Shown here one piece after another: positions 10,949 through 43,493 of a stretch of 64,000 nt of DNA. The notes beneath the pieces were generated by a model. It made no database searches. It was not told the DNA's origin and was given only the letters and a program-made list of their open reading frames with translations. Source of the stretch: Pseudoalteromonas rubra (GTDB lineage: Bacteria; Pseudomonadota; Gammaproteobacteria; Enterobacterales; Alteromonadaceae); NCBI RefSeq assembly GCF_001482385.1, contig NZ_CP013611.1, positions 4,099,501 to 4,163,500 on the forward strand. Reading direction: 5' to 3'. The position numbers and the translations under genes are program-made. Position 1 is the first letter of the stretch; each line of letters starts with the position of its first letter.

Positions 10949-10998
10949 TTGACCTGTTTCAGGCCAATGAAAAAGGTATTATAGCCCTAAGCTTGATA
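10949..10998 (+). promoter_or_regulatory. Tailocin regulatory element, copy 0 (upstream of the regulators)
   Basis: TTGACC (10949-10954), 22 bases, TATTAT (10977-10982), five bases (AGCCC), then TAAGCTTGATAAAGCT (10988-11003 including the hairpin end). Hexamers and spacings match the five downstream copies. It lies 290 bases before the XRE gene in the 546-base gap 10744-11289, which also must hold the ettA promoter; a TGATGC/GCATCA hairpin follows at 11026-11044. No gene was seen in this gap. Whether the element is a promoter, an operator or an RNA signal is inference. Confidence 0.5.
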
Positions 10999-11289
10999 AA
11001 GCTACGACATGGAGTTGTAAACATGTGATGCAGTTTTAGCATCAGCGCACTTTTCCTTCATTCCCTGCGCCAGCACATTCAGAACAGCGGATGTTACATG
11101 GGGCCAGTGGCCAGTAAACCTGGGCCACATACGCACCAGTTTAATTCAATGACCAGAGAAATAAACAGTGACCACCGTTGTCTGTAACCGCTTACCATGG
11201 CGGCCCGGCACATCCGAGTGCTGCATAGTGTTAGCCATTTAAGGGACGCTGTTTTGTTTGATGAATGACTTCACAGTATAAGGAAAACG

Positions 11290-11565
11290 ATGAAGCAATA
11301 TATGTACGCAAAGCCGCGGTTAATGCAGCAAAAACGAATCCCTATGGGGGCTGATATCCTGAGGTTTGCCCGTCTCTTAAGAGGTTATACGCAGGCTGAG
11401 TCAGCAGCACATTATGGCGTTGAAGAGCGCACGCTGAGACGCTGGGAAAATAAAGAATACAGCCCTAGGTGGAACGACGTTGTCGGTCTGGTCGAGGATG
11501 TTTATTCACTCGATATTTTAGAAGTAATAGGAAAGATCAATGATGATGACACAACCAACCATTAA
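11290..11565 (+). CDS. XRE-family helix-turn-helix regulator of the tailocin cluster
   Basis: This 91-residue protein has an XRE-type HTH at about 22-62 (DILRFARLLRGYTQAESAAHYGVEERTLRRWENKEYSP). AAGGA precedes its ATG. It is the first gene of the cluster and overlaps the Q-like gene by 26 bases, so the two are likely coupled. By position it is a candidate repressor or activator of the tail genes. It lacks a peptidase or cleavage domain, so a LexA-like self-cleaving switch is not visible. Confidence 0.75.
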   Translation: MKQYMYAKPRLMQQKRIPMGADILRFARLLRGYTQAESAAHYGVEERTLRRWENKEYSPRWNDVVGLVEDVYSLDILEVIGKINDDDTTNH

Positions 11566-11902
11566 GCAGCTACGCACCGCTTTAAAACGATGGGGTCGCT
11601 TTTGGCGTGCAAAAGAATTGGGCAAAGGGTTCAGCCGCCAGGCGGTGACCGAACGAATAGGTGACTCCAGTGCCCGCTATGTGAGCAGTGATATGATGAG
11701 CGTGCCTGAAGAAATAGAGGCACTGACACAACAGATTGCACAGTTAAGGCCTGAATGTATCCGTGCACTGCGCGGCAAATATCTGGTTGAGGGAGACATA
11801 GCACAGGTTGCAAAAACACTGGGCTTCGACTCAAAACGCTCGTTAGAGTTTTGGCTGGTTAAAGCTGAGCGCAGTCTGCTTCAGAGCTTGTGTCAGCAAT
11901 AA
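11540..11902 (+). CDS. Lambda-Q-like antitermination protein
   Basis: This 120-residue protein fits the phage antitermination Q layout (PF06530-like). An N-terminal helix carries the characteristic LxRWGRFWRA. The C-terminal sigma-region-4-like HTH is IRALRGKYLVEGDIAQVAKTLGFDSKRSLEFWLVKAERSL. Q proteins bind DNA at or near a late promoter, load onto the paused RNA polymerase and make it ignore terminators. Here it precedes the lysis and tail genes, as Q does in lambdoid phages, and the tail operon contains several intrinsic terminators for it to act on. The assignment rests on motif similarity and position. Confidence 0.6.
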   Translation: MMMTQPTIKQLRTALKRWGRFWRAKELGKGFSRQAVTERIGDSSARYVSSDMMSVPEEIEALTQQIAQLRPECIRALRGKYLVEGDIAQVAKTLGFDSKRSLEFWLVKAERSLLQSLCQQ

Positions 11903-11913
11903 GGAGAAGCACA

Positions 11914-12333
11914 ATGACAATTATGAATACGGTTGAGCAGATAAAAAAACATGAGGGATTCCGGCGTTTTCCTTATTACTGCACGGCTGGCAAACTCACC
12001 ATAGGATATGGCAGAAATTTGGAACAAAATGGCATAGCTGAAGAAGAAGCTGAGCAGTTGTTGGCACAAGATGTAGCCAATGCTCAGGCTGGTGTACGGC
12101 GTCGTGTTGATATCTCTCACTGCAATGAAGCCCGTCAGGCGGTGCTGACAAATATGGCCTTCAACCTTGGTGTGCGAGGGTTGCTGGGTTTCAGTAACAT
12201 GCTTGATGCAGTGCAGCATGGCGATTTTGAGCGAGCAGCATTGGAAATGCTAGATAGCCGCTGGGCCAAACAAGTTCCTGAGCGCGCAGAGGAGCTGGCG
12301 CAACAAATGCTCAGTGGACAGTGGCAATCTTAA
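11914..12333 (+). CDS. Phage-type GH24 lysozyme (endolysin)
   Basis: The gene encodes about 139 residues from the ATG at 11914, chosen because AAGGAG lies at 11901-11906 and an upstream ATG overlaps the previous gene. The catalytic triad of T4/P21-type lysozymes is kept with family spacing: Glu in KHEGF, Cys nine residues on (YYCTAG; D or C in the family) and Thr six further on in LTIGYG. No signal or SAR segment is present, so release through a holin is expected. In tailocins such enzymes lyse the producer cell to release particles. Confidence 0.9.
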   Translation: MTIMNTVEQIKKHEGFRRFPYYCTAGKLTIGYGRNLEQNGIAEEEAEQLLAQDVANAQAGVRRRVDISHCNEARQAVLTNMAFNLGVRGLLGFSNMLDAVQHGDFERAALEMLDSRWAKQVPERAEELAQQMLSGQWQS

Positions 12334-12370
12334 ATTGGGGGGAAACTATGAATGAGGAGGTGGCCAAACC

Positions 12371-12616
12371 ATGCAAGCCGACCAATGGCAAATGAAAAAG
12401 GAGCTGAATCTGGCTCATATCCTGACCACCATTGCACTGTTGGTGTCAGGCATTTTATATCTCAATGATCTGGACAAGCGGATCACCACGAATTCGCAGG
12501 AGCTGGCACATCTTAAGCAGATCCGCAAAGAGGACCAGAAGCGCATTGAAAAGCGCCTTGACTCAATAGATAAAAAACTCGACGCATTGTTGAGTGCTAA
12601 GCGCAACAACGGTTAG
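12371..12616 (+). CDS. Holin-like small membrane protein
   Basis: This 81-residue protein has one hydrophobic segment (about 14-31, LAHILTTIALLVSGILYL) followed by a charged coiled coil (LKQIRKEDQKRIEKRLDSIDKKLDALL). GAGGAGG precedes the ATG. Its position right after the lysozyme, its size and the TM plus coiled-coil shape fit a phage holin or XhlA-like holin partner. No second spanin gene was seen, so membrane disruption may depend on this protein alone. The family is not certain. Confidence 0.55.
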   Translation: MQADQWQMKKELNLAHILTTIALLVSGILYLNDLDKRITTNSQELAHLKQIRKEDQKRIEKRLDSIDKKLDALLSAKRNNG

Positions 12617-12746: not shown

Positions 12747-13568
12747 ATGAATACCGCGATAGATCTGTCACGTCTTGCACCACCTGCGGTGATAGAAACA
12801 CTGAACTACGGAGAGATCCGCGCTGAGCTAGTCGAGGCGATATCGGAACGTTTGCCTGGACATAGCTTTTTGGCGTCTGATCCTGCCATCAAAGTGCTAG
12901 AGGTTGCTGCCTATCGGGAACTGCTCCTGAGACAAAGGGTGAATGACGCTGCACAAGCGGTGATGCTGGCCTTCGCCTCAGGCAGTGATCTTGATCATCT
13001 CGGTGGGTTGTTTGGTGTTGCACGGGCTGACGCAGAAGAGGATGAGCGTTATCGGGCGCGTATTCCGCTTTCTTTAGAAAGCCACAGTATGGCAGGTACC
13101 ACAGGCGCTTATCAGTTTCAGTCTCTGCTTGCTGACGCTCGGGTACGAGATGTTCATGTTGCATCAAGCACACCCGGCGTGGTTGAAGTAACAGTGCTTA
13201 CCGACTTAGGTGCTGATCTGGCAGAGGTACAAAGTGCAGTGGCAGACCATCTGAATCATGAGGATATTCGGCCATTGACGGATCAGGTTCAGGTATCGGC
13301 CACACGGCCAACCAGTGTGCCCGTTGAAGCGCACGTTTATCTTAACCCGGGTGTGAATGAGTCGCAGGTCAGACTGGTAATAGATACTGCGCTGGATGCT
13401 TTTAACCGGGCGCATACTCGGTTGGGTAAAGAGATCCCGCACTCTGCAATTATCGATCTGTTACATCAGGGCGGGGTGCGCAAAATCAAATTATTGTCAC
13501 CTTCGGATGACATTACGCCCGAAGATACGCAGGCCATGAGTTTGTCGCTGCAACTGAGTTTTTTCTAG
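12747..13568 (+). CDS. Baseplate wedge protein gpJ, module 1
   Basis: This 273-residue gpJ-like (T4 gp6-related) protein has family signatures AAYRELLLRQRVNDAAQAVMLAFASGSDLDHLGGLFGVAR, DERYRARI and SMAGTTGAYQFQSLLADARVRDV. gpJ forms the wedge ring around the spike hub and holds gpI and the fibres. It is the first of four gpJ paralogues in the cluster and the shortest. It ends nine bases before its gpI partner. Confidence 0.9.
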   Translation: MNTAIDLSRLAPPAVIETLNYGEIRAELVEAISERLPGHSFLASDPAIKVLEVAAYRELLLRQRVNDAAQAVMLAFASGSDLDHLGGLFGVARADAEEDERYRARIPLSLESHSMAGTTGAYQFQSLLADARVRDVHVASSTPGVVEVTVLTDLGADLAEVQSAVADHLNHEDIRPLTDQVQVSATRPTSVPVEAHVYLNPGVNESQVRLVIDTALDAFNRAHTRLGKEIPHSAIIDLLHQGGVRKIKLLSPSDDITPEDTQAMSLSLQLSFF

Positions 13569-13577
13569 GAGGTCTTC

Positions 13578-14492
13578 GTGACAGCCAGTACTGATTTACT
13601 GCCGCTAGGTGCCTCGGAGTTAGAACGCAGCCTGAGTGCGGCAACACACCATGCTGAGCGGGGCGTCGCGCCTGAGCTCGTGGCCAAACTCTGGGATCCG
13701 CAAACGTGTCCGGAGTCTCTGCTGCCCTGGCTGGCCTGGGCCCTGTCGGTGGACGAATGGGATGAAAACTGGCCGAGCGAGGCCAAACGGGCGTTGATCG
13801 CTCGCTCAGTTCCGATCCACAAACACAAGGGAACCGTCGGCTCAGTGAAACGCGCATTGTCTGCATTGGGTCTGGAGCTGGAGTTTTTTGAGTGGTTTGA
13901 AGATACCGATGATGTTTATCTGGCCCCTTATTTAAGCAAGGAGCCGCATACCTTCGTTTTTATCGCCTGGGCTAATGCGCTGCCTTACACCAGTCGGGCC
14001 GTCAAGCTGGATCAAAACCTTTACGATGCTATCCATCGGGTGACAAACCAGACTAAGCCACAAAAGGCGCACTTTGATTTCCTGGTGGGGATGAAAATGG
14101 CGAGCGCTGCGGCGGTGGGGGCGATCGTTCATCCGATCACACATAAGCGCTTATATGGTGCGGTTGAGCCCTGTATTGGCGACAAAGCCAAACAGCGTGA
14201 CAGCCAGGTGAGTCTGTCTGTGGCTGCCTCTCTATCTGATAAGCGTTATCAGGTACTCAGACACCGTGCTGGAGTAGATAAACTGCGTCACCGGATCTCG
14301 CAGTGCAGTTTACGTCAGGCGTTTTGCATGACACGTCGACCTGTGCAGGTTGTTCGTTTCAGAGGTCTGTCGGATCAGCGTATTCCCGATGAATTTATTA
14401 ACAGTGTCAGTTGCGCCGCGGCGGTGATGCATATCAGTCGCCGTCGGGTGAGTGCCGTGCGTTGCTACGGCACACTTGGCGCACCTGCATAA
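13578..14492 (+). CDS. Tail protein gpI, module 1
   Basis: This 304-residue protein begins at GTG after GGAGG. The gpI core reads LWDPQTCPESLLPWLAWALSVDEWDENWPSEAKRALIARSVPIHKHKGTVGSVKRAL, shared with modules 2 and 4. In P2, gpI links gpJ to the fibre. A Cys/Arg-rich C-terminal extension of about 90 residues (RRPVQVVRFRGLSDQR, RRRVSAVRCYG) is specific to this copy and may set which fibre is accepted. Confidence 0.88.
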   Translation: MTASTDLLPLGASELERSLSAATHHAERGVAPELVAKLWDPQTCPESLLPWLAWALSVDEWDENWPSEAKRALIARSVPIHKHKGTVGSVKRALSALGLELEFFEWFEDTDDVYLAPYLSKEPHTFVFIAWANALPYTSRAVKLDQNLYDAIHRVTNQTKPQKAHFDFLVGMKMASAAAVGAIVHPITHKRLYGAVEPCIGDKAKQRDSQVSLSVAASLSDKRYQVLRHRAGVDKLRHRISQCSLRQAFCMTRRPVQVVRFRGLSDQRIPDEFINSVSCAAAVMHISRRRVSAVRCYGTLGAPA

Positions 14493-14506
14493 AGGAGTTT
14501 CTAACT

Positions 14507-15064
14507 ATGAGTATTTTACTACAGCCCGTGATCACTTCTGCGGGCTTGTCGGCGCTGTTCAGAGCGCAACAGGGCGGCTTCAAAGCCAAAATCAGTAAAG
14601 TGGGCCTGGGCAGCGGCAGTTATCAGCCCCATGAGGGGATCACTCGTCTGCAGGATGAGAAGTACAAACTGGAACTGGCCAGTGCCAAAACACTCGCCGA
14701 TGGCAAACAGCTACACCTGACGGTGCGTGATGCTGAGCCGATAGCGGGAGAAGGCTTTTTCGTCAATGAAATTGGTTTTTACACCGAAGAAGAAGTCGAT
14801 GGACAAATACAGCACGTGTTGTTCGCTGTGTATTCTTCCCCAACCGAGTCAATTGCTTATAAGTCTAATGACGTTGAGTTGTTACTGGCGTTTGACCTGA
14901 CCCTGACAGGCGTGCCATCAGACTCAATCACCGTGATCGATCAGGGGGTTGAGCTCAATATTTTGGTGGCCCCTGAGCTGGCCAAAATGGGCTCAGCACA
15001 AATCGGTAATATGCATCGACATTTGAAACTCAAGTTTGCACTGATGGACAACGGGGTGCTTTAG
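14507..15064 (+). CDS. Tail-collar fibre protein (gpH N-terminal type, DUF3751-like), module 1
   Basis: The gene encodes 185 residues from the ATG at 14507 with AAGGAG upstream; a longer frame from 14411 runs inside gpI. The fold-defining pattern matches the phage tail-collar fibre domain: ITSAGLSALFRAQQGGFKAKISKVGLGSGSY, then GFFVNEIGFYT and VLFAVYSS. In P2 gpH this domain is the N-terminal attachment part of a long fibre. Here it is a separate protein, so it probably acts as an adaptor between gpI and the fibre encoded two genes on. Confidence 0.85.
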   Translation: MSILLQPVITSAGLSALFRAQQGGFKAKISKVGLGSGSYQPHEGITRLQDEKYKLELASAKTLADGKQLHLTVRDAEPIAGEGFFVNEIGFYTEEEVDGQIQHVLFAVYSSPTESIAYKSNDVELLLAFDLTLTGVPSDSITVIDQGVELNILVAPELAKMGSAQIGNMHRHLKLKFALMDNGVL

Positions 15065-15097
15065 GCACCAGGACAGAATAAACAAGGAGGCACTACG

Positions 15098-15370
15098 ATG
15101 ACGCAATACAGCACGGCTCCTGAGCGGGCACAACAACTGGCCGAAGAGGCCATAAAATTACTCAAACAAGCCAAAGCACTACAACATCAGGCGCACGTTG
15201 ATGCCGCCCGTGTGCAGGCTTATCAACAGCACAGTGACGGCCTGGCTTTTCAGTTTCTGGCGGCGTGCGCCGAGTATGGTGAACACAGCCCGCAGGCTGG
15301 CAAGGCCCGTGAGCACTGGCTGGGCGCACGTAACGCGATCAAAGCGCAGTTCCCAAGAACTTCAATTTAG
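15098..15370 (+). CDS. Small helical protein of unknown function, module 1
   Basis: This is a 90-residue, Ala/Gln-rich, fully helical-looking protein (QLAEEAIKLLKQAKALQHQAHVDAARVQAYQQH) after an AAGGAGG site. It lies between the collar-type protein and the fibre and has no counterpart in modules 2 and 4. Module 3 has a small Gln-rich gene in an equivalent position (25540). It may be a fibre linker or assembly factor, but this is not recognised. Confidence 0.6.
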   Translation: MTQYSTAPERAQQLAEEAIKLLKQAKALQHQAHVDAARVQAYQQHSDGLAFQFLAACAEYGEHSPQAGKAREHWLGARNAIKAQFPRTSI

Positions 15371-15404
15371 ATACTTTTTAACTCAAATTTAAACGGAGAA
15401 AACT

Positions 15405-16220
15405 ATGGCATTAGAACACGATATTGCCAGCCTGGTTGAAGCCTCAGAAGCCCTGACCAGCACGGTAGACAACAAAATTCAGAGTATTGATAGCGCGCTC
15501 AGTGCGGCTATTAGTGCTTCACAGAGCAAGACAGATCAGCACCTTGCAAAAGTGGATGCAAAGCTGAGTTCGTATACGGAATCTCAGTCGCATTTTCGAG
15601 TGACGAAGAACCAGGCCCTTGTTCCGAATACAGATGGCTCATTTCCAAAGGACTGGGGGGCAGGGATTTTGAAACAAGCCCGGTTGGTTGAGACCGTTGA
15701 AACCGGGGTTGAAGTAAACGCCAGAAGCGAGCTTGCGCGTGAGTTTTTACGCGCAATTGGCTCAGATACGAAGTATTTTGCCAAGAACTTTAATATTTGG
15801 GAGCTTGAATTTCTCCCTTACCGTAACATCACCAATGCGCAGGGCAATACCGAGAAAGCGCAATCATACATGATGTATCAGTACGTGCGTCGCCCTACCT
15901 TCATGACGTGTGCAGCGGTTGTAAAACACATTCGTGGTGTCGTGCCAACCGGGTTTTGGTGTAGCGGTTTAGAAGCAAATGCGCCTGCTAAGGTGTGCGG
16001 CGGTGGGATAGGCCATAGTAATCGTAACCTGTACACACATTGCTACCCTTACATCAATGGTACGCACCTTGATTTGTCTGAAACAACGGTGATCCAGGTG
16101 GCATTACCTGCGGTAGTCACTGGCAATGTTCCAATTGCTAGCGCCTGGGGCCAGTTCCCATACTTGGGTGACAGTGCAGTGTCGGCTTATGAACATCAAC
16201 CAACCCCAACTTTACCTTAG
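15405..16220 (+). CDS. Tail fibre / receptor-binding protein, module 1
   Basis: This 271-residue protein has an N-terminal coiled coil of about 60 residues (SLVEASEALTSTVDNKIQSIDSALSAAI), a HFRVTKNQALVPN motif shared with the other fibres (pattern h-x-L/V-T-K-N-Q) and a beta-rich C-terminal domain. The end (VIQVALPAVVTGNVPIASAWGQFPYLG) resembles the end of the second module 4 fibre. The layout fits a short trimeric tail fibre whose tip binds a cell-surface receptor. It is followed ten bases later by its likely assembly partner. Confidence 0.72.
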   Translation: MALEHDIASLVEASEALTSTVDNKIQSIDSALSAAISASQSKTDQHLAKVDAKLSSYTESQSHFRVTKNQALVPNTDGSFPKDWGAGILKQARLVETVETGVEVNARSELAREFLRAIGSDTKYFAKNFNIWELEFLPYRNITNAQGNTEKAQSYMMYQYVRRPTFMTCAAVVKHIRGVVPTGFWCSGLEANAPAKVCGGGIGHSNRNLYTHCYPYINGTHLDLSETTVIQVALPAVVTGNVPIASAWGQFPYLGDSAVSAYEHQPTPTLP

Positions 16221-16229
16221 GAGTACAAC

Positions 16230-16682
16230 ATGGCAAAACTTATCGTCAATAATCAAATAGCAGAACAATTCTTTGACCCATTTACCCCACCTGCCGTAGT
16301 TGCGCAGTTTGTGGAGGAAAACTTCGGACAACATAGTGAGTATTCCATTGAGCTGAGTGATACAGAGCAACAGATGATAAACCGTATTCAGGTTCGCAGT
16401 GACGTAGAACAGCAAGTGGCAGACAGCCAGTCCTTGCTTGGTACAACGTCGGACACGACACACTTATTACTCAATGAACTCAGTGGCTTTGTCAACAAAC
16501 TGTCAGAAGCAGACAACCTGGAAGACGTGAAAGCGTCAGTGACTTCACTGAAAGCCACCATTGGTGATATTGAAGGCCAGGTGGCAACGGGTGAGCTGAC
16601 TTTCCCATATCAGAGCAAAGGGCTGGATACTGTAAAACAGGAGATCATTGAACGCGCCAATGGCGTTAACAATCTGCTGTAA
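16230..16682 (+). CDS. Fibre assembly partner, module 1
   Basis: This 150-residue protein has a C-terminal 95 residues (SLLGTTSDTTHLLLNELS..., then LTFPYQSKGLDTV) homologous to the product at 19757 in module 2. It occupies the place of phage tail-fibre assembly chaperones, directly after the fibre. Unlike P2 gpG it shows no obvious gpG motif, so the chaperone role is inferred from position and from being duplicated together with the fibre. Confidence 0.6.
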   Translation: MAKLIVNNQIAEQFFDPFTPPAVVAQFVEENFGQHSEYSIELSDTEQQMINRIQVRSDVEQQVADSQSLLGTTSDTTHLLLNELSGFVNKLSEADNLEDVKASVTSLKATIGDIEGQVATGELTFPYQSKGLDTVKQEIIERANGVNNLL

Positions 16683-16754: not shown

Positions 16755-17744
16755 ATGTCTCTGACCAATTTTAGTGCCATAGATATGGCACGCTTACCTA
16801 CGCCGAAGCTGATTGAGCCGCTGAGCTTTGATGAGATAAAAACCGCGATTGTGGCGGAGTTTTCACAGCGCTATGACGGGGAAGGGCTGGATTATGCCAG
16901 TGATCCCGCCATTAAGCTCATAGAGGCCTTTGCCTATCGGGAAATGCTGTTGCGGCAACGCATTAATGAGGCGGCCGAAGCTGTTTTACTGGCCAAAGCC
17001 AGCAGCAGTGAGCTGGATTATCTGGGGGCGCGCTTTGGTGTTGAACGTGCCGAGCTCGCACCGGGTAGTGACACCGTGATCCCTCCTGTGCCAGCGCAGT
17101 ATGAAAGTGATGAGCGCTATCGTGAACGCATTCGCCTGGCACTGGAAGGATTCAGTACCGCGGGACCCGCGGGCGCCTATGTGTTTCATGCTATGAAAGC
17201 CTCACCGAAGGTGCGGGATGTGTATGTATCCGCACCTGAATTCGAGCGCGCAACTGTGGTTGATGGCACTGCGACAAGCGCGTTTGTACTTAACTGTACA
17301 TCAAATGCAGGATTGAGCGAGCCGATGCCGGGTGATGTGGCAGTGACCATCCTCAGTGAAGAGGGCTCGGGCCTGGCATCAGACACTTTACTGAATACAG
17401 TCCAGACGTATCTTAGCCAGGATGAGATCCGTCCGCTGACGGACAGAGTCAGGGTGAAACCTGCTTTGATACGCCGTTTCAGCATCAACGCGCGCTTGTA
17501 TGTGTATCCAGGGATGGACAGCAATGCAATAAAACAGCTGGCGATTGACACCACCTCAGACTGGCTCAGTGAACACCGTAAGCTCGGCCATGATATTTCC
17601 CTGTCAGCCCTGTATGCGGTATTGCATCGTGAGGGGGTGCAGCGGGTTGAGTTACTCGAACCACAGTGGGATATCACGGTGGGGCAGGATGAAGCAGCAT
17701 ACTGTACTTCGATAGCAGTCGACATTGGAGGCGAGCATGTCTGA
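16755..17744 (+). CDS. Baseplate wedge protein gpJ, module 2
   Basis: This 329-residue protein is the longest of the four gpJ paralogues. Core motifs AFAYREMLLRQRINEAAEAVLLAKASSSELDYLGARFGV and DERYRERIRLALEGFSTAGPAGAYVFHAMKASPKVRDVYV are conserved. Two insertions explain its length: about 15 residues before DERYRERI, and about 30 residues (FERATVVDGTATSAFVLNC) between the SPKVRDVYV region and VAVTILSEEG. AGGAG precedes the ATG. It overlaps its gpI by eight bases. Confidence 0.9.
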   Translation: MSLTNFSAIDMARLPTPKLIEPLSFDEIKTAIVAEFSQRYDGEGLDYASDPAIKLIEAFAYREMLLRQRINEAAEAVLLAKASSSELDYLGARFGVERAELAPGSDTVIPPVPAQYESDERYRERIRLALEGFSTAGPAGAYVFHAMKASPKVRDVYVSAPEFERATVVDGTATSAFVLNCTSNAGLSEPMPGDVAVTILSEEGSGLASDTLLNTVQTYLSQDEIRPLTDRVRVKPALIRRFSINARLYVYPGMDSNAIKQLAIDTTSDWLSEHRKLGHDISLSALYAVLHREGVQRVELLEPQWDITVGQDEAAYCTSIAVDIGGEHV

Positions 17745-18459
17745 GTCACTGTTACCCTGTCAGGCGAGTCAGTTTGAACGTGCGCTGGATAACGCAGGCA
17801 GTCGCATTGCACAGCTGCCCGTGTCACTCTCGCAACTGTGGGATCCGTGGCGCTGTCCGGCACATTTTCTGCCCTGGTTGGCTGATGGATTAAGCGTGGA
17901 CAGCTGGGACAGTCTCTGGCCCGAGCAGGTTCAGCGCCAGGTGATTGCTGCCAGTGTACCGAATCACAGAATTAAAGGTACCGTCGGGGCAATCAAGCAG
18001 TCTCTGCACAGCCTGAACGCCAGTGTGGAACTGACTGAGTGGTGGCAAACCGGTGGTGTACCTCATAGCGCTGAGTTACTGGCACTGGCCCATGAAAACC
18101 TGGATCCACAAGGCAGCACATTACTGACCCCAAAACTTCAGGCACAGCTGTGGCAAAGCGTGGCAGCGACTAAGCCATGCCGCAGCCAGATCCAATTTAG
18201 TGTTGGGGTGATGCTACAGAACAATCTGGCTATGGCCGCGGGCTCGGATGCTGTCAGTGCTCAGACTGGTCGATGGCACCAACACTACGATTTTACTTTT
18301 TCAACTTCATCAACATACCTGTCAGGGGCTGCACAGTCTTTGTCGGTGTCTACACCCTGTTTACGTCAGTCCGCACACATGCAACTGAATAGTGGGGTGT
18401 GGGCGGCTGGCGGCATGGTAATTACGCAGCTGCAACAGGTCGCGATGACAACCGTTTAG
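17737..18459 (+). CDS. Tail protein gpI, module 2
   Basis: The gene encodes 240 residues from the ATG at 17737, with GGAGG just upstream inside gpJ. The core LWDPWRCPAHFLPWLADGLSVDSWDSLWPEQVQRQVIAASVPNHRIKGTVGAIKQSL matches modules 1 and 4. It is the shortest gpI of the cluster and lacks the long C-terminal extension of module 1. It probably joins the module 2 gpJ to the collar-type protein at 18467. Confidence 0.88.
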   Translation: MSESLLPCQASQFERALDNAGSRIAQLPVSLSQLWDPWRCPAHFLPWLADGLSVDSWDSLWPEQVQRQVIAASVPNHRIKGTVGAIKQSLHSLNASVELTEWWQTGGVPHSAELLALAHENLDPQGSTLLTPKLQAQLWQSVAATKPCRSQIQFSVGVMLQNNLAMAAGSDAVSAQTGRWHQHYDFTFSTSSTYLSGAAQSLSVSTPCLRQSAHMQLNSGVWAAGGMVITQLQQVAMTTV

Positions 18460-19021: not shown

Positions 19022-19023
19022 CT

Positions 19024-19746: not shown

Positions 19747-19756
19747 GAGTATTGAA

Positions 19757-21858: not shown

Positions 21859-21878
21859 CCACTAAACAAGGAGTTACA

Positions 21879-35020: not shown

Positions 35021-35022
35021 CC

Positions 35023-35672: not shown

Positions 35673-35700
35673 CTTCTGTTTTTAAATCTATTTCAACTTA

Positions 35701-35750
35701 AGCCACAGCACGGTGCGGCCAATTTATCGCCACACGTCTGTGGCTTTTTT
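35701..35750 (+). terminator. Intrinsic terminator between gpW and sheath
   Basis: AGCCACAG (35701-35708) pairs with CTGTGGCT (35738-35745) and is followed by T to 35750. It lies inside the tail operon, upstream of the strongly needed sheath and tube genes, so readthrough or a local promoter is implied. Confidence 0.75.
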
Positions 35751-35785
35751 ATTAGCTAATTGACATACCTTTAAAGGAGATATCT

Positions 35786-36946: not shown

Positions 36947-37455
36947 TGGCAATGTCTCCTAAAATCCTTAAAAAATTCAAACTGTTCGTAGACGGCAAAG
37001 GCTACCTGGGCATTGCGGACGAAATTCAGCTGCCAAAAGTCACAGTCAAAACCCGTGAAGTCACGTCGGGCTTTCAGGCACCGATTGAGCTGGACGTAGG
37101 TCAGCTTGAGAAACTGGAAGGTAACATCACGTTACTTGAATACAACGCTGACATGATGAAGCTGCTGGGTGACTGGAGTGGCGCAACCACGCCTTTGACT
37201 GCACGTGGTGCAATTCAGGCGCAAGGTCAGCCACCACAGCCTGTGGTTGTGACGCTGGAAGGCTTCTTTAAAGAAGTGGACATGGGCAACTGGAAAGACG
37301 GCGAAGAAGCCAAGTTAACGCTGCAATACACAGTGCAGAAGTACAAGCTGGAGATCAACAACGAAGTGATCTACGAAATTGATTTGTACAACGATGTACG
37401 CAAAATCAATGGCACAGATCAGATGGCGTTGTTACGTGCAGCGATTGGCGCTTAA
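36946..37455 (+). CDS. Tail tube protein (FII-type)
   Basis: This 169-residue protein is the length of P2 FII. The N-terminus PKILKKFKLFVDGKGYLGIADEIQLPKVTVKTREVTSGFQAPIELDVGQLEKLEGNITLLEYN and the later QPPQPVVVTLEGFFKEVDMGNWKDGEEAKLTLQYTV match the contractile-tail tube family. It is coupled to the sheath gene by a one-base overlap. Confidence 0.95.
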   Translation: MAMSPKILKKFKLFVDGKGYLGIADEIQLPKVTVKTREVTSGFQAPIELDVGQLEKLEGNITLLEYNADMMKLLGDWSGATTPLTARGAIQAQGQPPQPVVVTLEGFFKEVDMGNWKDGEEAKLTLQYTVQKYKLEINNEVIYEIDLYNDVRKINGTDQMALLRAAIGA

Positions 37456-37485
37456 TTCGCGTTCTTGCCTTGAAGTTAGCGGTTG

Positions 37486-37514
37486 CCCCTCGCCAGTTTA
37501 GCGACTGGAAGGGG
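37486..37514 (+). other. Hairpin between tube and gpE genes
   Basis: CCCCT (37486-37490) with AGGGG (37510-37514), and CCAGT (37493-37497) with ACTGG (37504-37508), form a two-part stem without a U-run. It may protect the abundant sheath-tube mRNA end or reduce expression of the genes that follow. Confidence 0.45.
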
Positions 37515-37556
37515 TACCCGCCTATCCGCTGAGTAAATAATAATAGGAGCAAAAGC

Positions 37557-37814
37557 ATGAAAGAAATCATTACCCTGGCATTTCCAATAACGGTTGATGG
37601 GCATGAGTATGCCGAACTGACAATGAGACGACCAAAAGTACGTGACCGGTTAATGGTGGATAAGGCAGATATCAGCGAATCGGAAAGTGAAATTCGTTAC
37701 TTCTCCAATTTGTGCGAAGTCTCGCCGGATATCATCGAAGAGCTTGACTGGAGCGACTTTGTGAAGCTCAGAGAGACCTTACAGGCTTTTCTCGTATCCC
37801 GCCCAGGCGCTTAA
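37557..37814 (+). CDS. Tail assembly chaperone gpE
   Basis: This 85-residue protein matches the gpE/gp41-like chaperones before the tape measure: ITLAFPITVDGHEYAELTMRRPKVRDRLMVDKADISESESEIRYFSNLCEVSPDIIEELDWSDFVKLRETLQAFL. In P2, gpE and the frameshifted E+E' product coat the tape measure during tail assembly. It is followed five bases later by an E'-like frame. Confidence 0.88.
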   Translation: MKEIITLAFPITVDGHEYAELTMRRPKVRDRLMVDKADISESESEIRYFSNLCEVSPDIIEELDWSDFVKLRETLQAFLVSRPGA

Positions 37815-37819
37815 GAGCC

Positions 37820-37945
37820 ATGGTTATTGCCTTAGCCAAATACACTGGCTGGGGCCTGACCGAGCTCAATGCATTGACCGAAGATGAATTAATCGACTGG
37901 TTTAATGCTGCGGTTGACTATAAAGAGGCAACCTCCGTGTCCTGA
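37820..37945 (+). CDS. gpE'-like second tail assembly chaperone frame
   Basis: A 41-codon frame lies in the -1 frame relative to gpE: MVIALAKYTGWGLTELNALTEDELIDWF... It contains the 'L..L..EL..W' pattern seen in P2 E'. The -1 frame is open back through the gpE end (at least from 37757), so an E-E' fusion by ribosomal frameshifting is possible. No classic X-XXY-YYZ slippery heptamer is seen in the overlap, so an independent start at ATG 37820 right after the gpE stop is the alternative. Confidence 0.65.
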   Translation: MVIALAKYTGWGLTELNALTEDELIDWFNAAVDYKEATSVS

Positions 37946-38103
37946 TCCGTAGCGGGTCAATATCATCAGGCATGCGCCTTTGCGCATGTTTGTGACTGAA
38001 TATTCGGGCATTGCTCAGTGGCTTGTTTCAGGCTGCTGAGCAATGCCACACAACATCTCCCTTCACTCTCTGGTATCACCTCTTAACGCTTTCAGGTAAA
38101 TCT

Positions 38104-41100
38104 ATGAAACAAGGAACTGTCGAACATCTTCGTGCTCCTGGCGGAGCCAAAAATAAAGTTAAACATCGCCTGGCGCAGAGCAATGGCGTGGACCAGCGAC
38201 TGGCGAAACTGGGTCGGACGCTGCACGCTTTGCAAGTACAAAGTGATGCCAGTGCAGCTTCCGTGGGACAATTGCTGGCACAGCTTCAGGCGCTGGCATT
38301 ATTAGCCCCTCAAAACAGCGATTTGCAAAAACGCCTGCAATCTGTGCTGACACAACAGGGGCCATCGGGTCAGCCTGCGCCAGCCGAAGGGGCGGTTAAC
38401 CTGAGTGTTGACAACCCGGCTTCTTCTGAGGTGTCAGACGCTTTGCTGGCGTCTATTGACAACCTTGGCGCTGTGATTGTTCGCCTCGCAACTCAGAATG
38501 AACATGTAGCTCAGCCTGGTGCAGTAAGCCAGATTTCGACAGCAACGGCATCAGGCTTTGTTGCGGCGAGTGGGTCTGAACAACGTCAGAGCTCAGTTGA
38601 ATTGAGTGCGACACACAACGCGGGTAGTGAGGCAGCTGCCCCTGAGCAGGCATTGGATGCGTCCAGTGTAACTGCGCTGTCTCAGTCAGTGGATGCTGAT
38701 TTGAGTAGTCTGACCAATTTGATGCCCCAGGTAAGCCGCTCTTTAGACCTGAGTCAGGCAGTCGCTGCGTTTCAATCCGTATTGCCTGCACTTCAAAGCC
38801 AGGACCTCAAGGCGCTGTTTGAAGGCGATCTGGATGGTTTGAAGACGGCATTACCAGCACTGATTGATGCAGTAGATTTGCCTCAGCTGCAGCAGGCTTT
38901 GGCAGCAGAATTGCCAGCATTGGCACAGTTGGACTTGTCAGGTGTGCTGCGCGGTGACGTGCAAGCGTTAGCATCGCAGGTCCCTCACGTGCTCAGTGCA
39001 TTGGAACTGGACGGCTTATCGGCCGGAGTCGCACAAGCGTTACCGGCACTTCAGCAATTGGATATGCCGGCGCTGGCTTCAGGAGAGCTGGACTCATTAA
39101 TCCAGGCTGCTCCGCAGCTATTTCAGGCACTGAACATGCCCGGTGCTTCTCTGGCGATGGAAAAAGCCCTGCCCGTGCTCAGCAAACTCAATGCGCCTGC
39201 GATTATCGAAGGTGATCTCAGTAGTTTACTGGATGCCGCGCCAGAGGTACTGCGCGCATTTGAACTGGAAGGAGCTGCAGACAAATTGCAGGCAGCCATC
39301 CCAGGCCTGACACAACTTGACCTTAAAGGCATTGCTCAGGGCGATGTTTCGAGTCTGATGAAGGTTGCCCCCCAGTTATTAAGTGCGCTGGAGCTGGGTG
39401 ACGCTGGCACAGCTATGGCCGCGGCGCTGCCAGCATTACAAAAGTTTGATGTTGATGGGTTGCTTAGTGGTGATCTCACTTCACTGGCTGAAGCCGGACC
39501 TGAGCTGCTGAATGCTCTGGGCATGGAAGATGCTGCGGCTGTGTTGCAACAACATGCAGGCATTGTGCAAAAGCTGGATATTCAGGGAGTCATGCGTGGC
39601 GACCTGGCTTCACTGGGTGAGGTTGCTCCGGCTGTGTTTGAAGCGCTGGACATGCCAGGGGTGTCGGCTGCGATGCAAAAGGCCATGCCGGTGCTCAACA
39701 AACTCAATGCGTCGGCGATTATGGAAGGTGACCTGAGCAGTTTGCTGGACGCAGCGCCTGAGGTATTACGCGCCTTTGAGTTGGGTGATGCCGCAGATAA
39801 GCTGCAAACTGCAATTCCAGGTTTGGCTCAGCTGGATTTAAAAAGCATTGTTCAGGGCGATGTCTCCAGCTTGATGAGTGCCGCACCGGATCTACTTAAA
39901 GCGCTGGATCTGGGAGATGCAGGCGCTTTACTCGAGTCGGCTTTACCAGCACTACAGAAATTCGATGTGGACGGGCTTTTGAGTGGCGATTTGTCGTCTC
40001 TGACTGAAGCCGGCCCTCAGCTGCTGAGTGCTTTTGGTATGGATGATGCGGCTTCATTGCTGCAACAACATGCCGGGGTGTTCCAGAAGCTGGATGTGAA
40101 AGGCGTGCTGGGTGGCGATTTGTCTTCGCTGGTCTCCGCTGCACCGGATCTGCTGAATGCGTTCGGTATGGACGGTGCGGCATCTTTGTTGGCACAACAT
40201 CAAGGAGCGCTCAGCAAATTGGACTTTAAAGGGCTGATGAGCGGTGATTTATCCTCTTTGGGTGATGCCGCGTCTGAGTTCTTAAGTGGCTCGGGTTTGT
40301 TTGGCGACACTGGTGGCGACGCAGAAGGGGCCAATGTATTTGATGAACTCGACGGACATTTAGAGGATGAACCTGAAGAAGAGAAAAAGCAGCCACGTAA
40401 GCGCAAAAACAAAGGCAAGTCGCAGGGCAAGCCTGGTGGTAAGCGAGGGCGTAACAAAGGGCAACGCAACAACCAGGCTGACTCTGCACCGGAGAAAAAT
40501 ACAGCCAGTCAGCATAAACGCAAACCCGTAGCAAAAGGCAACGCTATTCGCTCGCTCGATGCTGGCAGGCAGCTCCCTAGCGCGACATCTAAATCGATAC
40601 CTGTTCAGGCTGCGGCAAATGACGCAAAGGCCGGTAAACTTGGGCAGTTCGCAGGGAAAAAAGGCGGCTTATTCAGTCGTCTGCCCGGAGCCAAAATGCT
40701 CGGTAAACTGGCTGCTCCTTTAAGTGCAGTGATGGGCGCCGTGGATGTTGCGACTACCCTGTCGGATGACAGCCTGAGCGCAGAGCAAAAAACGCAACAG
40801 GTTGGCAGCGCTGTGGGTGGTGCAGGTGGTGCCTGGGCTGGGGCAGCCGCTGGGGCCGCAATTGGCTCTGTGATCCCGGGTATTGGCACTGCTATAGGCG
40901 GCCTGGTCGGCGGCGCATTGGGTGCGATGGGTGGTGAGTCTGTTGGTGGCTGGCTGGGCGAAAAGCTGGGAGGCTGGTTTGTTGATGATGAACCTGCCAA
41001 ACCCCAGTCAACACCAGATGTAAAAAGCACTGTCGGGACAACCCATTTGACCGCGGAGGGGAATGGTACGCCGAGCGCCACGTCATCAGGTAGCGATGGC

Positions 41101-41775
41101 AATGGCCTGCTTAATGTTGCCGAAGGTTTCATCAAAAACCAGTTTATCAATCCGTTTAATTTGGCCGCGGGCACTGTGTCTGCGTTTGCTGAACTCAGCG
41201 GGAATAACAAAAGTCGTGCGCATACAGTGGCCAGAGTTGGCAACTTTGTCGGTGATGCGCTGAATTATCACACCGTCTGGCAGGCTGCCAATGATGATAC
41301 TTTGAGTGGCTCGCAAAAAGCGCAAGTGATTGGCGGTACGCTTGGAGGCATGTTCTCTGCGAAAGCGGTGAGTGGTTTGATGGAGAAAAGCCGTAATCCC
41401 TGGTTGAAGATGGCTGCGCCATTGGCTGGGTTTATCACCAATGCAGCAGTTGGCTCGCAAATTGGCAGCTGGTTTAGCGAAGAAAAAGCGGCTGAGTCCG
41501 GTGAAGACGCAGCCGGTAAGGCTAATCTTGCAACCACGCCAGAGATGCTGTCTGGCTCGCAAGGTACAGCAATACCGCAGACAACGCCTGGGTCTGAAAA
41601 TGGTACCACATCCCATCAGGCCGCGCAGGTAACAGTCAACGCCAATATTACAGTCAACGCACGCAGTGGTGAGCAGGCTCAGGACATTGCTATTCAGGTT
41701 AAGCAGATCCTTGAACAGCAACAACAACAGGCCATTCGGGACTTGAATGCGCGTTATTTTAATCAGGTGGCTTGA
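38104..41775 (+). CDS. Tape measure protein with 43-residue repeats (gpT)
   Basis: The gene encodes 1223 residues from the ATG at 38104 (MKQGTVEHLRAPGGAKNKVKHRLAQS). The first 225 residues are Ala/Gln/Ser-rich. Residues 227 to about 735 are twelve tandem 43-residue repeats around a G-D-L/V-x-S/A-L core. A basic linker (QPRKRKNKGKSQGKPGGKRGRNKGQ) follows. The C-terminal third holds Gly/Ala zipper membrane-like segments (GAAAGAAIGSVIPGIGTAIGGLVGGALGAMGG) and ends in a helical tail. Position between E' and U and the size identify the tape measure, which sets tail length. Confidence 0.88.
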   Translation: MKQGTVEHLRAPGGAKNKVKHRLAQSNGVDQRLAKLGRTLHALQVQSDASAASVGQLLAQLQALALLAPQNSDLQKRLQSVLTQQGPSGQPAPAEGAVNLSVDNPASSEVSDALLASIDNLGAVIVRLATQNEHVAQPGAVSQISTATASGFVAASGSEQRQSSVELSATHNAGSEAAAPEQALDASSVTALSQSVDADLSSLTNLMPQVSRSLDLSQAVAAFQSVLPALQSQDLKALFEGDLDGLKTALPALIDAVDLPQLQQALAAELPALAQLDLSGVLRGDVQALASQVPHVLSALELDGLSAGVAQALPALQQLDMPALASGELDSLIQAAPQLFQALNMPGASLAMEKALPVLSKLNAPAIIEGDLSSLLDAAPEVLRAFELEGAADKLQAAIPGLTQLDLKGIAQGDVSSLMKVAPQLLSALELGDAGTAMAAALPALQKFDVDGLLSGDLTSLAEAGPELLNALGMEDAAAVLQQHAGIVQKLDIQGVMRGDLASLGEVAPAVFEALDMPGVSAAMQKAMPVLNKLNASAIMEGDLSSLLDAAPEVLRAFELGDAADKLQTAIPGLAQLDLKSIVQGDVSSLMSAAPDLLKALDLGDAGALLESALPALQKFDVDGLLSGDLSSLTEAGPQLLSAFGMDDAASLLQQHAGVFQKLDVKGVLGGDLSSLVSAAPDLLNAFGMDGAASLLAQHQGALSKLDFKGLMSGDLSSLGDAASEFLSGSGLFGDTGGDAEGANVFDELDGHLEDEPEEEKKQPRKRKNKGKSQGKPGGKRGRNKGQRNNQADSAPEKNTASQHKRKPVAKGNAIRSLDAGRQLPSATSKSIPVQAAANDAKAGKLGQFAGKKGGLFSRLPGAKMLGKLAAPLSAVMGAVDVATTLSDDSLSAEQKTQQVGSAVGGAGGAWAGAAAGAAIGSVIPGIGTAIGGLVGGALGAMGGESVGGWLGEKLGGWFVDDEPAKPQSTPDVKSTVGTTHLTAEGNGTPSATSSGSDGNGLLNVAEGFIKNQFINPFNLAAGTVSAFAELSGNNKSRAHTVARVGNFVGDALNYHTVWQAANDDTLSGSQKAQVIGGTLGGMFSAKAVSGLMEKSRNPWLKMAAPLAGFITNAAVGSQIGSWFSEEKAAESGEDAAGKANLATTPEMLSGSQGTAIPQTTPGSENGTTSHQAAQVTVNANITVNARSGEQAQDIAIQVKQILEQQQQQAIRDLNARYFNQVA
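38782..40310 (+). repeat. Twelve 129-bp in-frame repeats inside the tape measure gene
   Basis: Units start LPALQ, LPALA, LPALQ, LPVLS, IPGLT, LPALQ, AGIVQ, MPVLN, IPGLA, LPALQ, AGVFQ, QGALS. Each is 43 residues with the pattern LPxLxxLDxxGLLxGDLSSLxxAAPxLLxALxL. Units 4-7 and 8-11 correspond in order (starting near 39166 and 39682), showing a later duplication of a four-unit block of 172 residues. Confidence 0.85.
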
Positions 41776-41802
41776 GCCCACAATTTATAATTCAGGTGAA
41801 CA

Positions 41803-42258
41803 ATGAGCAATACCAATCATGCCAGACACATGATGCAGCTGGGCGACTACAAGTTTTCAGTCAGTACTGCGGCATTCAATAAATTGAAATACGACACACA
41901 ATATCGCTGGAAGTCTCTTGATGCTCCAACCAATAAAAACAGCCCTTTGATGCAGTTTATCGGGGTTGGTGAGCAAACCCTGGATCTGGAAGGCACCATC
42001 TTTCCGCAAATTGTCGAAAATGGACTCAAACAGCTCGACTATATGCGCGAGGAAGCGGCCAAAGGGCAGCCTCTGACTCTGGGCTATGTGGAGGAAAGTG
42101 GCAAGACCAACCCCAGTGTTGGCCGGGTGCTGGGCAAATGGGTGATCAGCAGTATTAGTGAGACTCGAACCTTGTTTTTTAATGATGGTATTCCAAGAGA
42201 GATACAGTTTTCAATGCGATTGAGCCGTTATCAGGCGGCATTGAAGGAACCCGAATAA
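41803..42258 (+). CDS. Tail protein gpU
   Basis: This 151-residue protein is a P2 gpU-like protein: MMQLGDYKFSVSTAAFNKLKYDTQYRW, VGEQTLDLEGTIFPQ, LGYVEESGKTNPSVGRVLGKWVISSISETRTLFFNDGIPREIQFSMRL. It acts at the tail end during assembly. It sits in the usual T-U-X-D order, 27 bases after the tape measure. Confidence 0.92.
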   Translation: MSNTNHARHMMQLGDYKFSVSTAAFNKLKYDTQYRWKSLDAPTNKNSPLMQFIGVGEQTLDLEGTIFPQIVENGLKQLDYMREEAAKGQPLTLGYVEESGKTNPSVGRVLGKWVISSISETRTLFFNDGIPREIQFSMRLSRYQAALKEPE

Positions 42259-42267
42259 GGAGACGTT

Positions 42268-42480
42268 ATGAAAGGGGTTAATTATGTAACACGCGATGGC
42301 GATTGCTTGGACTTGATCTGTTACCGGCATTACGGGCAGAGCTCAGGGACCGTGGAAAAGGTGCTCGGTGCAAACACTGGGCTAGCCGGGCTAGGTGCTA
42401 TCTACCCGGCTGGCATCGAAATCTTCCTGCCGGAGTTGCCCAAGCCTAAGACCAAGCACGTGATCAATATCTGGGATTAA
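42268..42480 (+). CDS. Tail protein X (LysM-like)
   Basis: This 70-residue protein of the phage tail X family has a LysM-type fold: YVTRDGDCLDLICYRHYGQSSGTVEKVLGANTGLAGLGAIYPAGIEIFLP. AAGGAG precedes the ATG. It is thought to bridge the hub and tube or to bind peptidoglycan in contractile tails. Confidence 0.92.
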   Translation: MKGVNYVTRDGDCLDLICYRHYGQSSGTVEKVLGANTGLAGLGAIYPAGIEIFLPELPKPKTKHVINIWD

Positions 42481-42482
42481 CC

Positions 42483-43493
42483 ATGAAGCAACAACCCTAT
42501 TTTTCCATCAAAGCAAACGGTAATGAAGTCACACAAAGCCTCAAAGATCGGATTGTTGAAGTCAGTGTGACGCAGCGAACCGGGTTGCTCAGTGACGTAT
42601 GTGTTGTGCGCTTCGACAACCTGGAAGAGTTGCCAATTCAACTGCCCGAGCCCGGTAACATACTTGAAATCGCATTGGGCTACAAAGATGGTACGCCTGA
42701 CAACCACGCAGCATTAACACCAGTAGGCAAGTTTGATGTGGGGGCATACGAGCTCAGCGGTCCTGCCCGGGCACTCACTTTATATGGTAACAGCATCATG
42801 TGGGATGCCGACTTTAAGTCGCCAAGGTATCGCTCCTGGCCTGAGCAGGGTAATGAAACACCAGTCACACTGGGCGAGCTGGTGGAGCAAATAGCGTCTG
42901 AGTATGGCTTGCAAAGTGGTGTGAGTGACACATTGCAGAATATTAGCCTGCCTCATTTGGAGCAAAGTGAGAGTGATATGCAGTTGCTTACTCGCCTTGC
43001 CCAGCGTTATGACGCAGTAATGAAAGTGGCAGCAGATAAGCTGCTTTTTGTGACCAAAGGGACCGGACGGTCTTTGTCCGGACAAACCGTGACTTCAGCG
43101 ACTTTGGGGAAAAACCACATCATACACTGGTCCCGGGTCAGCAATCATTGTCACTTAGTGGGAGCTGTTCAGAGCTATTACCATGATACAGAGCAGGCAT
43201 CGCGGATCGCCGTCCAGGCAGGGGGTGGGGCACCGATGATCACTTTACCTTATCTGTATCCGGATGAAGCCAGTGCCCAGGCGGCTGCAAACAGTCAGCT
43301 AACACGCCTGCAGCGTGCTCATGGCGCTGTACAACTTACGGTACCAGGTAACCCAGACATAGTTGCCGGGGCATTAATTAAGGTTGATAAAACGGTCGAT
43401 CATCTTGAAGGTGATTGGTTTATCAAAGAAGTCACGCATCAGCTGACGTCACAGGGCTTTATGACCCAAGTTACCGCTGAGCAACCAAGCTAA
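42483..43493 (+). CDS. Baseplate hub protein gpD
   Basis: This 336-residue protein is a P2 gpD/T4 gp27-type hub. It starts QQPYFSIKANGNEVTQSLKDRIVEVSVTQRTGLLSDVCVVRFDN and contains QSESDMQLLTRLAQRYDAVMKVAADKLLFVTKG and a C-terminal PGNPDIVAGALIKVDKTVDHLEGDWFIKEVTHQL. The trimer joins the tube to the gpV spike. It is the last gene of the cluster; no regulator or integrase follows. Confidence 0.93.
   Translation: MKQQPYFSIKANGNEVTQSLKDRIVEVSVTQRTGLLSDVCVVRFDNLEELPIQLPEPGNILEIALGYKDGTPDNHAALTPVGKFDVGAYELSGPARALTLYGNSIMWDADFKSPRYRSWPEQGNETPVTLGELVEQIASEYGLQSGVSDTLQNISLPHLEQSESDMQLLTRLAQRYDAVMKVAADKLLFVTKGTGRSLSGQTVTSATLGKNHIIHWSRVSNHCHLVGAVQSYYHDTEQASRIAVQAGGGAPMITLPYLYPDEASAQAAANSQLTRLQRAHGAVQLTVPGNPDIVAGALIKVDKTVDHLEGDWFIKEVTHQLTSQGFMTQVTAEQPS

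Follow-up and report, generated by a model that had tools for sequence, protein, structure and literature searches.

A 64-kb stretch of the Pseudoalteromonas rubra chromosome (C1:4099501-4163500 of a 5.91-Mb genome in three contigs; hereafter the window) carries an R-type tailocin locus that extends from a promoter-like element at 10.95 kb to the end of the gpD gene at 43.5 kb and holds four different sets of the baseplate wedge genes J (gpJ/Tri1) and I (gpI/Tri2) beside a single tail core. The hallmarks of an R-type tailocin are present: contractile sheath, FII-type tube, tape measure and baseplate (Table 1). A Pfam scan of 40 proteins of the locus identified a single core of gpV, PAAR, gpW, sheath, tube, gpE, gpU and gpD; gpX and the tape measure were assigned through PHROG matches, and several proteins match PHROG families of unknown function. 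Capsid, portal, integrase, recombinase and effector families were all absent from these 40 proteins, and the sole terminase-like match, Terminase_5 on the small helix-turn-helix (HTH) gene, has an E value of 0.033 and falls short of the family cut-off. The genome has one sheath match only, and the lysozyme gene is clustered with the tailocin genes. An earlier note, made from the letters of this DNA, had named the locus an R-type tailocin devoid of capsid, portal, terminase and integrase, and the scans bear this out apart from that weak terminase match.

Baseplate_J is matched four times in the whole 5.9-Mb genome, each time within the tailocin locus. All four J genes are intact open reading frames (ORFs) of 273-329 amino acids (aa) that match R2-pyocin Tri1 (PA0618) over most of their length (E 2e-30 to 9e-71), and directly 3' of each lies a Tail_P2_I gene (E 2e-11 to 6e-38). 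When the four I proteins were combined into one profile, it matched Tri2 (PA0619) with an E value of 5e-27. The sets are far from identical, J2, J3 and J4 sharing 43%, 31% and 32% identity with J1, and I2, I3 and I4 sharing 28%, 15% and 28% with I1. R-type tailocins are typified by a single J-I wedge pair, which is not what is found here. The genome-wide Baseplate_J and Pfam scans agree with the earlier note that four gpJ genes, each with its own gpI and appendages, accompany one core, and that the whole wedge is multiplied and not the fibre tip alone. Its gpJ starts hold at 12747 and 16755; those at 20186 and 28671 are same-frame methionines, the listed ORF starts being 20174 and 28656.

Two kinds of wedge are present. 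Modules 1, 2 and 4 encode a P2-like fibre collar followed by a separate tip gene, whereas module 3 has a different kind of fibre part (BW3TFN/DUF4815), with relatives in PDB that include Gp105 (6hhk), ORF64 and ORF65. The collar of module 1 matches Phage_tail_fib (E 1.5e-5) and the tail fiber family PHROG 3737 (E 2e-53); its ORF opens at 14411 and the real start is probably further in. In module 4 the collar match to Phage_tail_fib (E 0.0017) is below the cut-off, and the tip belongs to the PHROG 8748 family. The label chaperone-like in module 1 is given by gene position.

Table 1. Features of the tailocin locus, in positions of the window.
Feature	Position	Strand	Evidence or content
Operon-start promoter-like copy	10941..10989	+	GGGCA-N4-TGACC, 22 nt, TATTAT; exact match 10949-10989
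HTH regulator, 91 aa, first operon gene	11290..11565	+	HTH_31/HTH_3 matches just below cut-offs
Lysis region	11540..12616	+	Conserved 120-aa gene, phage lysozyme, small spanin-like protein
Phage lysozyme	11890-12333	+	Phage_lysozyme E 8e-19
Small protein, weak spanin similarity	12371-12616	+	Rz-like spanin PHROG E 0.0013
J1 (gpJ/Tri1)	12747..13568	+	Baseplate_J E 2e-19; PA0618 E 3e-45
I1 (gpI/Tri2)	13578..14492	+	Tail_P2_I E 7e-37
Module 1 appendages	14411..16682	+	Collar, small protein 15098, tip 15405-16220, chaperone-like 16230
J2 (gpJ/Tri1)	16755..17744	+	Baseplate_J E 2.5e-24; PA0618 E 9e-71 in two stretches
I2 (gpI/Tri2)	17725..18459	+	Tail_P2_I E 6e-38
Module 2 appendages	18467..20116	+	Collar 18467 (Phage_tail_fib E 1e-5), tip 19024, chaperone-like 19718
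J3 (gpJ/Tri1)	20174..21022	+	Baseplate_J E 3e-15; PA0618 E 2e-30
I3 (gpI/Tri2), most divergent I	21007..21858	+	Tail_P2_I E 1.6e-11
Module 3 appendages	21837..27720	+	BW3TFN 21837 (E 5e-46), DUF4815 22367 (E 3e-162)
Module 3, conserved protein	24343	+	
Module 3, small protein	25540	+	
Module 3, tip	25804-27285	+	
Module 3, last small protein	27295	+	
Four tandem promoter-like units	27914..28640	+	Period ~192 bp; just upstream of J4
J4 (gpJ/Tri1), wedge adjoining tail core	28656..29552	+	Baseplate_J E 5e-22; PA0618 E 1e-57
I4 (gpI/Tri2 with N-terminal extension)	29545..30672	+	Tail_P2_I E 2e-36, residues 116-246
Module 4 appendages	30672..32386	+	Collar 30672, tip 31253, small protein 32087
Second tip cassette with fifth promoter-like copy	32430..33624	+	Genes 32624, 33412; PHROG 8748 E 7e-49
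Fifth promoter-like copy	32445 (32430-32508)	+	Before second tip cassette
Tail core, one copy each	33699..43493	+	Pfam and PHROG matches
Conserved 193-aa protein, first gene of core stretch	33699	+	
gpV spike	34277	+	
PAAR	35023	+	
gpW	35337	+	
Sheath	35786	+	
Tube	36946	+	
gpE	37557	+	
Tape measure	38011	+	
gpU	41803	+	
gpX	42268	+	
gpD hub	42483	+	

Wedge classes in Pseudoalteromonas and beyond

We scanned 108 Pseudoalteromonas genomes for Baseplate_J, which was matched in 56, singly in 13 and several times in 43, and the loci were read in all 43 multi-match genomes. Across these 43 loci J1 is present in 43, J2 in 39, J3 in 41, J4 in 42 and a fifth class, J5, in 17. In none of the loci read is a class repeated. 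All 182 full-length J proteins (>240 aa), 127 of which were unused in building the class models, are assigned with margins of at least 76.8 bits, and in every one of the 182 cases an I gene comes next after J. Extra J genes elsewhere in some genomes (e.g. G028, G074 and G111) were left out of the classing. With three to five classes found per locus, one class for each of six wedges is unsupported. The gene order is J1-J2-(J5)-J3-(J5)-J4 throughout, except in G034, where the locus is on two contigs. One sheath is present per locus in 42 of the 43, the contig of G092 stopping before the sheath, hence J4 is uncounted there; G003 is fragmented, with three J visible. The same ABC-F gene, presumably ettA, lies upstream of the locus in 41 of the 43 genomes and marks a fixed chromosomal site; in G003 the contig starts too near, and in G034 the gene is not in the stretch read. 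The architecture is not a chance arrangement, recurring as it does in 43 of 108 congeneric genomes: the multi-wedge locus is common to many Pseudoalteromonas species, unusual and conserved. The survey for several gpJ beside one sheath proposed in the earlier note is therefore positive, and such loci are common in the genus, which is one half of the note's second ground for refutation.

Omega, the ratio of dN to dS, was calculated pairwise by the Nei-Gojobori method against eight close relatives, where dS was unsaturated. It is 0.02-0.14 for J, 0.06-0.25 for I and 0.02-0.12 for the sheath, and J and I evolve under purifying selection. The disabled gpJ or gpI copies that had been named beforehand as evidence against a working multi-wedge locus were not found in the window. 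The tips vary much more in modules 1 and 2, where identity falls to 28% among nine close genomes in which J1 stays at or above 77%; the module-3 tip is steadier (at least 72% in eight of the nine). A structure model of the module-1 tip (mean pLDDT 64.5) has a helix at residues 2-58 followed by strands, and is claimed on that basis as a predicted helical shaft plus beta-rich tip; it had no PDB match at an E value of 0.001 or better. For the module-3 tip, 50,697 phage records yielded one partial match, over 24% of the query. Module 2 of G106 (L283-L284) is a mosaic in which J2 is normal (89%) but I2 (66%) and the collar (58%) are divergent, showing that modules exchange some of their parts.

To look outside the genus, we took the best 80 of 258 loci from a scan of genome contigs. 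The closest sheaths among them, 97% identical to that of the window, are from Pseudoalteromonas strains XMcav2-N and OOF1S-7. Among the 49 of these loci that are neither Pseudoalteromonas nor Thalassomonas, 41 have J in the 10-kb flanks that were read and 8 do not; the 41 have one J gene each, broken into two ORFs in L092 and L102. Each wedge type thus stands alone in other genera, where the J-I pair mostly adjoins W, whereas in the Pseudoalteromonas locus J-I lies upstream of V. A scan of 395 genomes of the family gave 12 outside the genus with a Baseplate_J match. Four of these belong to genus g121, which includes Thalassomonas sp. RHCl1, and each of them packs four J into 11-13 kb; in the remaining eight, one to three J are found, on different contigs or as pieces of one frame. 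In the Thalassomonas locus that was read, a J1-like gene is followed by a J4-like one, by J3 and by another J4-like gene, after which come BW3TFN, DUF4815 and the core known from Pseudoalteromonas, so that the rule of no class twice is limited to Pseudoalteromonas. I3 and BW3TFN are separated there by a J4-like J-I-collar set that has a promoter-like copy of its own (L304-L305, joined coordinates 22899-25203). Baseplate_J was found in 13 other genomes of 369 in a sample of the class and in 50 other genomes of 398 in a sample of the phylum, and neither sample held two full-length J in one locus; short J pieces are paired in G310, G1489 and G1300, while the two weak matches of G1200 differ in frame and are separated by 345 bp. 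Among phage records the J4 query, the only one used, matched 366 records and never more than one place per record (366 places). Viral contigs in IMG/VR already include parts of such loci, so that pieces are on record even if the arrangement is undescribed.

A maximum-likelihood tree was built from 106 J rows, 55 from 13 Pseudoalteromonas genomes and 51 from outside (230-480 aa, a hand-picked set of viral contigs), with a root for drawing only. J1 (99/93), J2 (100/99), J3 (100/100) and J4 with J5 (100/99) each fall on one side of a well supported branch; J5 clusters tightly next to J4, and J4 without J5 is not recovered as a clade. J3 groups with J of BW3TFN-type wedges from other genera (100/98, 21 rows). 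From these separate lineages it follows that the wedges are not products of recent duplication, and by sequence the sets are old, separate lineages. In-place duplication is ruled out, as the J classes form separate groups and J3 belongs with another wedge type; the word "duplicating" in the earlier note does not survive this result. By domain (limits set by us, the C-terminal one after PDB 5ces), J2 is closest to J1 in its N-terminal part (0.53) and to J4 in its C-terminal part (0.34; J5 0.33), which hints that wedge genes exchanged parts long ago.

Promoter-like elements and regulators

The block upstream of the first gene is conserved in 42 aligned loci. The pattern TTGACC-N22-TANNAT-NNN-CCTA has five exact matches in the 5.9 Mb, all in the locus, and the reversed pattern has none. 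Matches to related units total 111; 39 of the 43 genomes have them, with one to seven apiece, and 84 lie between module 3 and J4. Their consensus is GGTCAGnATTGACCTGTTTTAA...AATCAGTAAGATACACCTAAGCTTGAGAAA. A palindrome, GGTCA-N4-TGACC, ends 22 nt upstream of TAAGAT and would be centred near -41.5 if TAAGAT is the -10 box, and we infer promoter identity from this layout. A narrower pattern was matched 76 times, in 38 of 107 genus genomes. Every one of these 38 belongs to the 43 that carry the locus, and the 64 genus genomes lacking it gave no match; the reversed control gave 0. All 76 are inside locus stretches, 25 before the HTH gene, 40 before J4, 6 before J5, 1 before a collar and 4 before the 193-aa core gene; these last 4 follow the module-4 collar, at the site where the window carries its second tip cassette. 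A looser form of the element precedes both J4-like genes of Thalassomonas and occurs three times before BW3TFN. With the patterns used, no copy stands directly before J2 or J3. The wedge sets seem to share one dedicated promoter type and, since the same locus-only type stands at the operon start and before J4, they are probably made together.

In the spacer before J4, tandem units 1-3 of the window hold a terminator-like hairpin, and the fourth is followed by another hairpin just before J4 (read by eye). Such terminated leaders recall antitermination of the Q or AlpA type. The repeat units had no Rfam match up to an E value of 0.5. Between 27720 and 27881, after module 3, are 29-nt inverted arms 104 nt apart that are unlike the promoter-like units.

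This spacer bears on whether one wedge set is made at a time, by a transcriptional or recombinational switch. J1-J3 could be transcribed apart from J4 and the core, with T-run hairpins between the two units, but both units open with the same locus-only promoter type. A recombinational version is opposed by the scarcity of inverted-repeat pairs of at least 22 nt in 10.7-44 kb, of which there are two only (one in the spacer after module 3, the other a 77%-complementary pair between the module-3 tip gene and I4), and by the lack of a recombinase family among the 40 proteins. We consider a regulated switch improbable, and rejected inversion in particular, there being no recombinase family and no suitable inverted repeats at the fibre ends.

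Strong relatives of the HTH regulator are present in 38 of 39 tailocin genomes (G003 misses) and in 0 of 60 other sampled genomes, which gave two weak matches. A second copy is encoded elsewhere in 36 of the 39, and is divergent from a repressor-like gene in all 21 genomes inspected (that of the window and 20 of 35 others). In the P. rubra genome the two HTH proteins are 65% identical over 68 residues, and the repressor-like gene (L312:3970-5302; C1 ~1.576 Mb) encodes HTH and Peptidase_S24 domains. Pyocins are controlled by the PrtR/PrtN repressor/activator circuit, which the S24 repressor with its divergent HTH gene resembles; the likeness suggests SOS induction and makes the remote S24/HTH pair a candidate SOS switch.

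Possible co-expression of the wedge sets, and alternatives

We propose, with a probability of roughly 0.7, that the locus is a domesticated R-type tailocin that co-expresses four (elsewhere three to five) complete, different wedge sets for one tail. Each set would pair a J of the Tri1 type with its own Tri2-type I and add a fibre anchor plus a receptor-binding tip, fast-changing in most sets, and the sheath initiator gpW, the hub and the tail would be shared as docking partners by all wedges. One induction, probably via the SOS-cleavable (S24) repressor and its divergent HTH regulator in the manner of PrtR/PrtN, would yield tails with different wedge and fibre identities and so several target specificities.

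Several points weigh against this proposal. Co-expression, assembly of each class into particles and a killing role are inferred from sequence. J2 is absent in G066 and G071, is a 79-aa remnant in G090 and is split into two ORFs in G111, and all of module 3 is gone from the contiguous locus of G065, so J2 and J3 are dispensable for persistence of the locus. An exact match to the promoter pattern is missing from five genomes with the locus (G003, G018, G034, G074 and G104). T-run hairpins separate the promoter-like units from J4 and make transcriptional read-through uncertain, and the window contains no LexA box of the form CTGT-N8-ACAG. Finally, the omega of the tips is higher than that of J and I, reaching 0.72, and stays below 1, so that tip variation is not proof of diversifying selection.

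The broken or missing J2 genes and the lost module 3 are also what would be expected of a decaying pile-up of phage fragments, in which one set works and the rest are relics. We regard this as very improbable, given that every J and I of the window is intact, with omega well below 1, and that order and orthology hold across the 43 genomes. The losses speak likewise against a layered baseplate, in which the extra J-I sets would form added rings or arms around a core wedge. J1 and J4 are missing from no locus that reached them, as such layering would allow, and relatives of BW3TFN are the proximal tail-fibre part that bears further layers in A511-like phages (PMC11406892). Each wedge type is, however, the sole J-I elsewhere (10-kb flanks), so it can serve alone, and J2 and J3 can be lost; a layered arrangement is if anything a little less probable than a regulated switch.

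Under the co-expression proposal, different wedge classes might also stand side by side in one six-wedge ring, which we hold to be possible although doubtful. gpW, hub and sheath are common to all sets, the one promoter type suggests simultaneous synthesis, the J classes persist together across the genus, and the C-terminal domains of J2 and J4 resemble each other more than the divergence of these two proteins elsewhere would lead one to expect (identity 0.34, against 0.37 in the N-terminal domain). In diffocin the sheath initiator binds the triplex core bundle, and C-terminal dimerization domains reach neighbouring triplexes (PMC11329794). Domain identities were compared over 182 J from Pseudoalteromonas and 49 from outside the genus, after removal of two outside rows with long branches; the pairs are not independent. 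Cross-class C-terminal identity is equal within and between genomes (0.269 and 0.269). For pairs with an N-terminal identity of 0.42-0.58 it is 0.27 within a genome, against 0.30 for Pseudoalteromonas-outside and 0.34 for outside-outside pairs, the N-terminal means in this band being 0.47, 0.48 and 0.51. As these identities are not raised, no co-adaptation of the inter-wedge contact is visible, and the domain identities carry no signal of concerted evolution of the J classes within a genome. The test gives mixing no support, though few residues may matter. Mixing would in addition dilute fibre-triggered contraction, several bound fibres being said to trigger it (PMC8195476). The earlier note had allowed for alternative or mixed wedges presenting several fibres from one locus; that several fibres are on offer for one tail stands, and mixing has no sign in the C-terminal-domain test.

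If the sets are co-expressed, we lean slightly towards baseplates that are mostly sorted by class, giving a mixed population of particles, and consider this somewhat more likely than wedges mixing inside one baseplate; the divergence of the J dimerization domains points weakly the same way. That a single particle builds its six-wedge ring from four or five co-expressed, non-interchangeable classes, and is thereby multivalent, able to address several receptors at once, and breaks the rule of six identical wedges, so as to make a weapon shared across the genus, appears unlikely.

Relation to known contractile systems

The R2 pyocin of P. aeruginosa is like the locus in its Tri1/Tri2 wedge (by sequence), sheath, tube, single-copy core, lack of a head and lysis gene. 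R2 has one J and one I, between W and the fibre, whereas here four J-I sets lie upstream of V, PAAR is a separate gene, and one set carries BW3TFN/DUF4815.

Xenorhabdicin and carotovoricin also have several fibre genes at one locus and changed or widened specificity, with up to 13 fibre and assembly genes in xenorhabdicin loci; unlike here, their diversity lies in the fibre genes and in site-specific recombination of fibre ends (PMC13280938). That source, in the part available, lists BW1-BW3 wedge genes among the conserved genes and does not mention extra wedge sets. A carotovoricin-type, inversion-switched fibre locus was rejected here, no recombinase family being among the 40 proteins scanned and no suitable inverted repeats standing at the fibre ends. 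Strain 30-84 of Pseudomonas chlororaphis has several particle specificities per strain from its R-tailocins (PMC13280938, PMC10598620), whereas here there is a single tail core with multiplied wedge sets.

Module 3 encodes relatives of Gp105 (6hhk), which is named for Listeria phage A511 in PMC11406892. Appendages of the A511 type are part of one baseplate; here they are one of four sets, on an R2-like J-I pair. ORF64 and ORF65, the other PDB relatives of module 3, we take to be proteins of Staphylococcus phage 812.

The metamorphosis-associated contractile structures (MACs) of Pseudoalteromonas luteoviolacea come from the same genus and have contractile tails, as here; they are described as contractile injection systems with effector proteins as cargo (PMC6748791, PMC10598620). 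The locus does not fit an extracellular contractile injection system of the Afp, PVC or MAC type, with J of only 273-329 aa and no effector family in the 40 proteins. J matches in frames of >1,200 aa occur elsewhere in the genus (G024, G035), and G023, whose J genes are at the places of those of strain HI1, has two sheath genes on two contigs, only one of them in a locus of the present type.

The known ways in which tailocins widen their range are fibre changes or whole second tailocins. Here distinct whole wedge sets have been kept around one tail through the divergence of the genus, with a promoter-like element at module borders. A description of multiple J-I sets in one tailocin, whose existence the earlier note had named as part of what would refute it, was not found in the open-licence literature, as judged by titles, openings of abstracts and passages, and the available parts of PMC5307369, PMC10598620, PMC11329794, PMC6748791, PMC11406892, PMC8195476, PMC12208367 and PMC13280938 make no mention of one. 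The locus makes it possible to test whether unlike wedges can form a six-fold baseplate, and how unlike J make use of one gpW, hub and sheath, and the genus supplies natural variants with three, four and five J classes.

Two features of the tail core may be added. The PAAR gene at 35023-35340 is a separate gene within an R-type tailocin, and some related loci, e.g. those of G028, G080 and G103, have no PAAR match. The tape-measure gene contains internal repeats with a 516-nt spacing (39082-40170).

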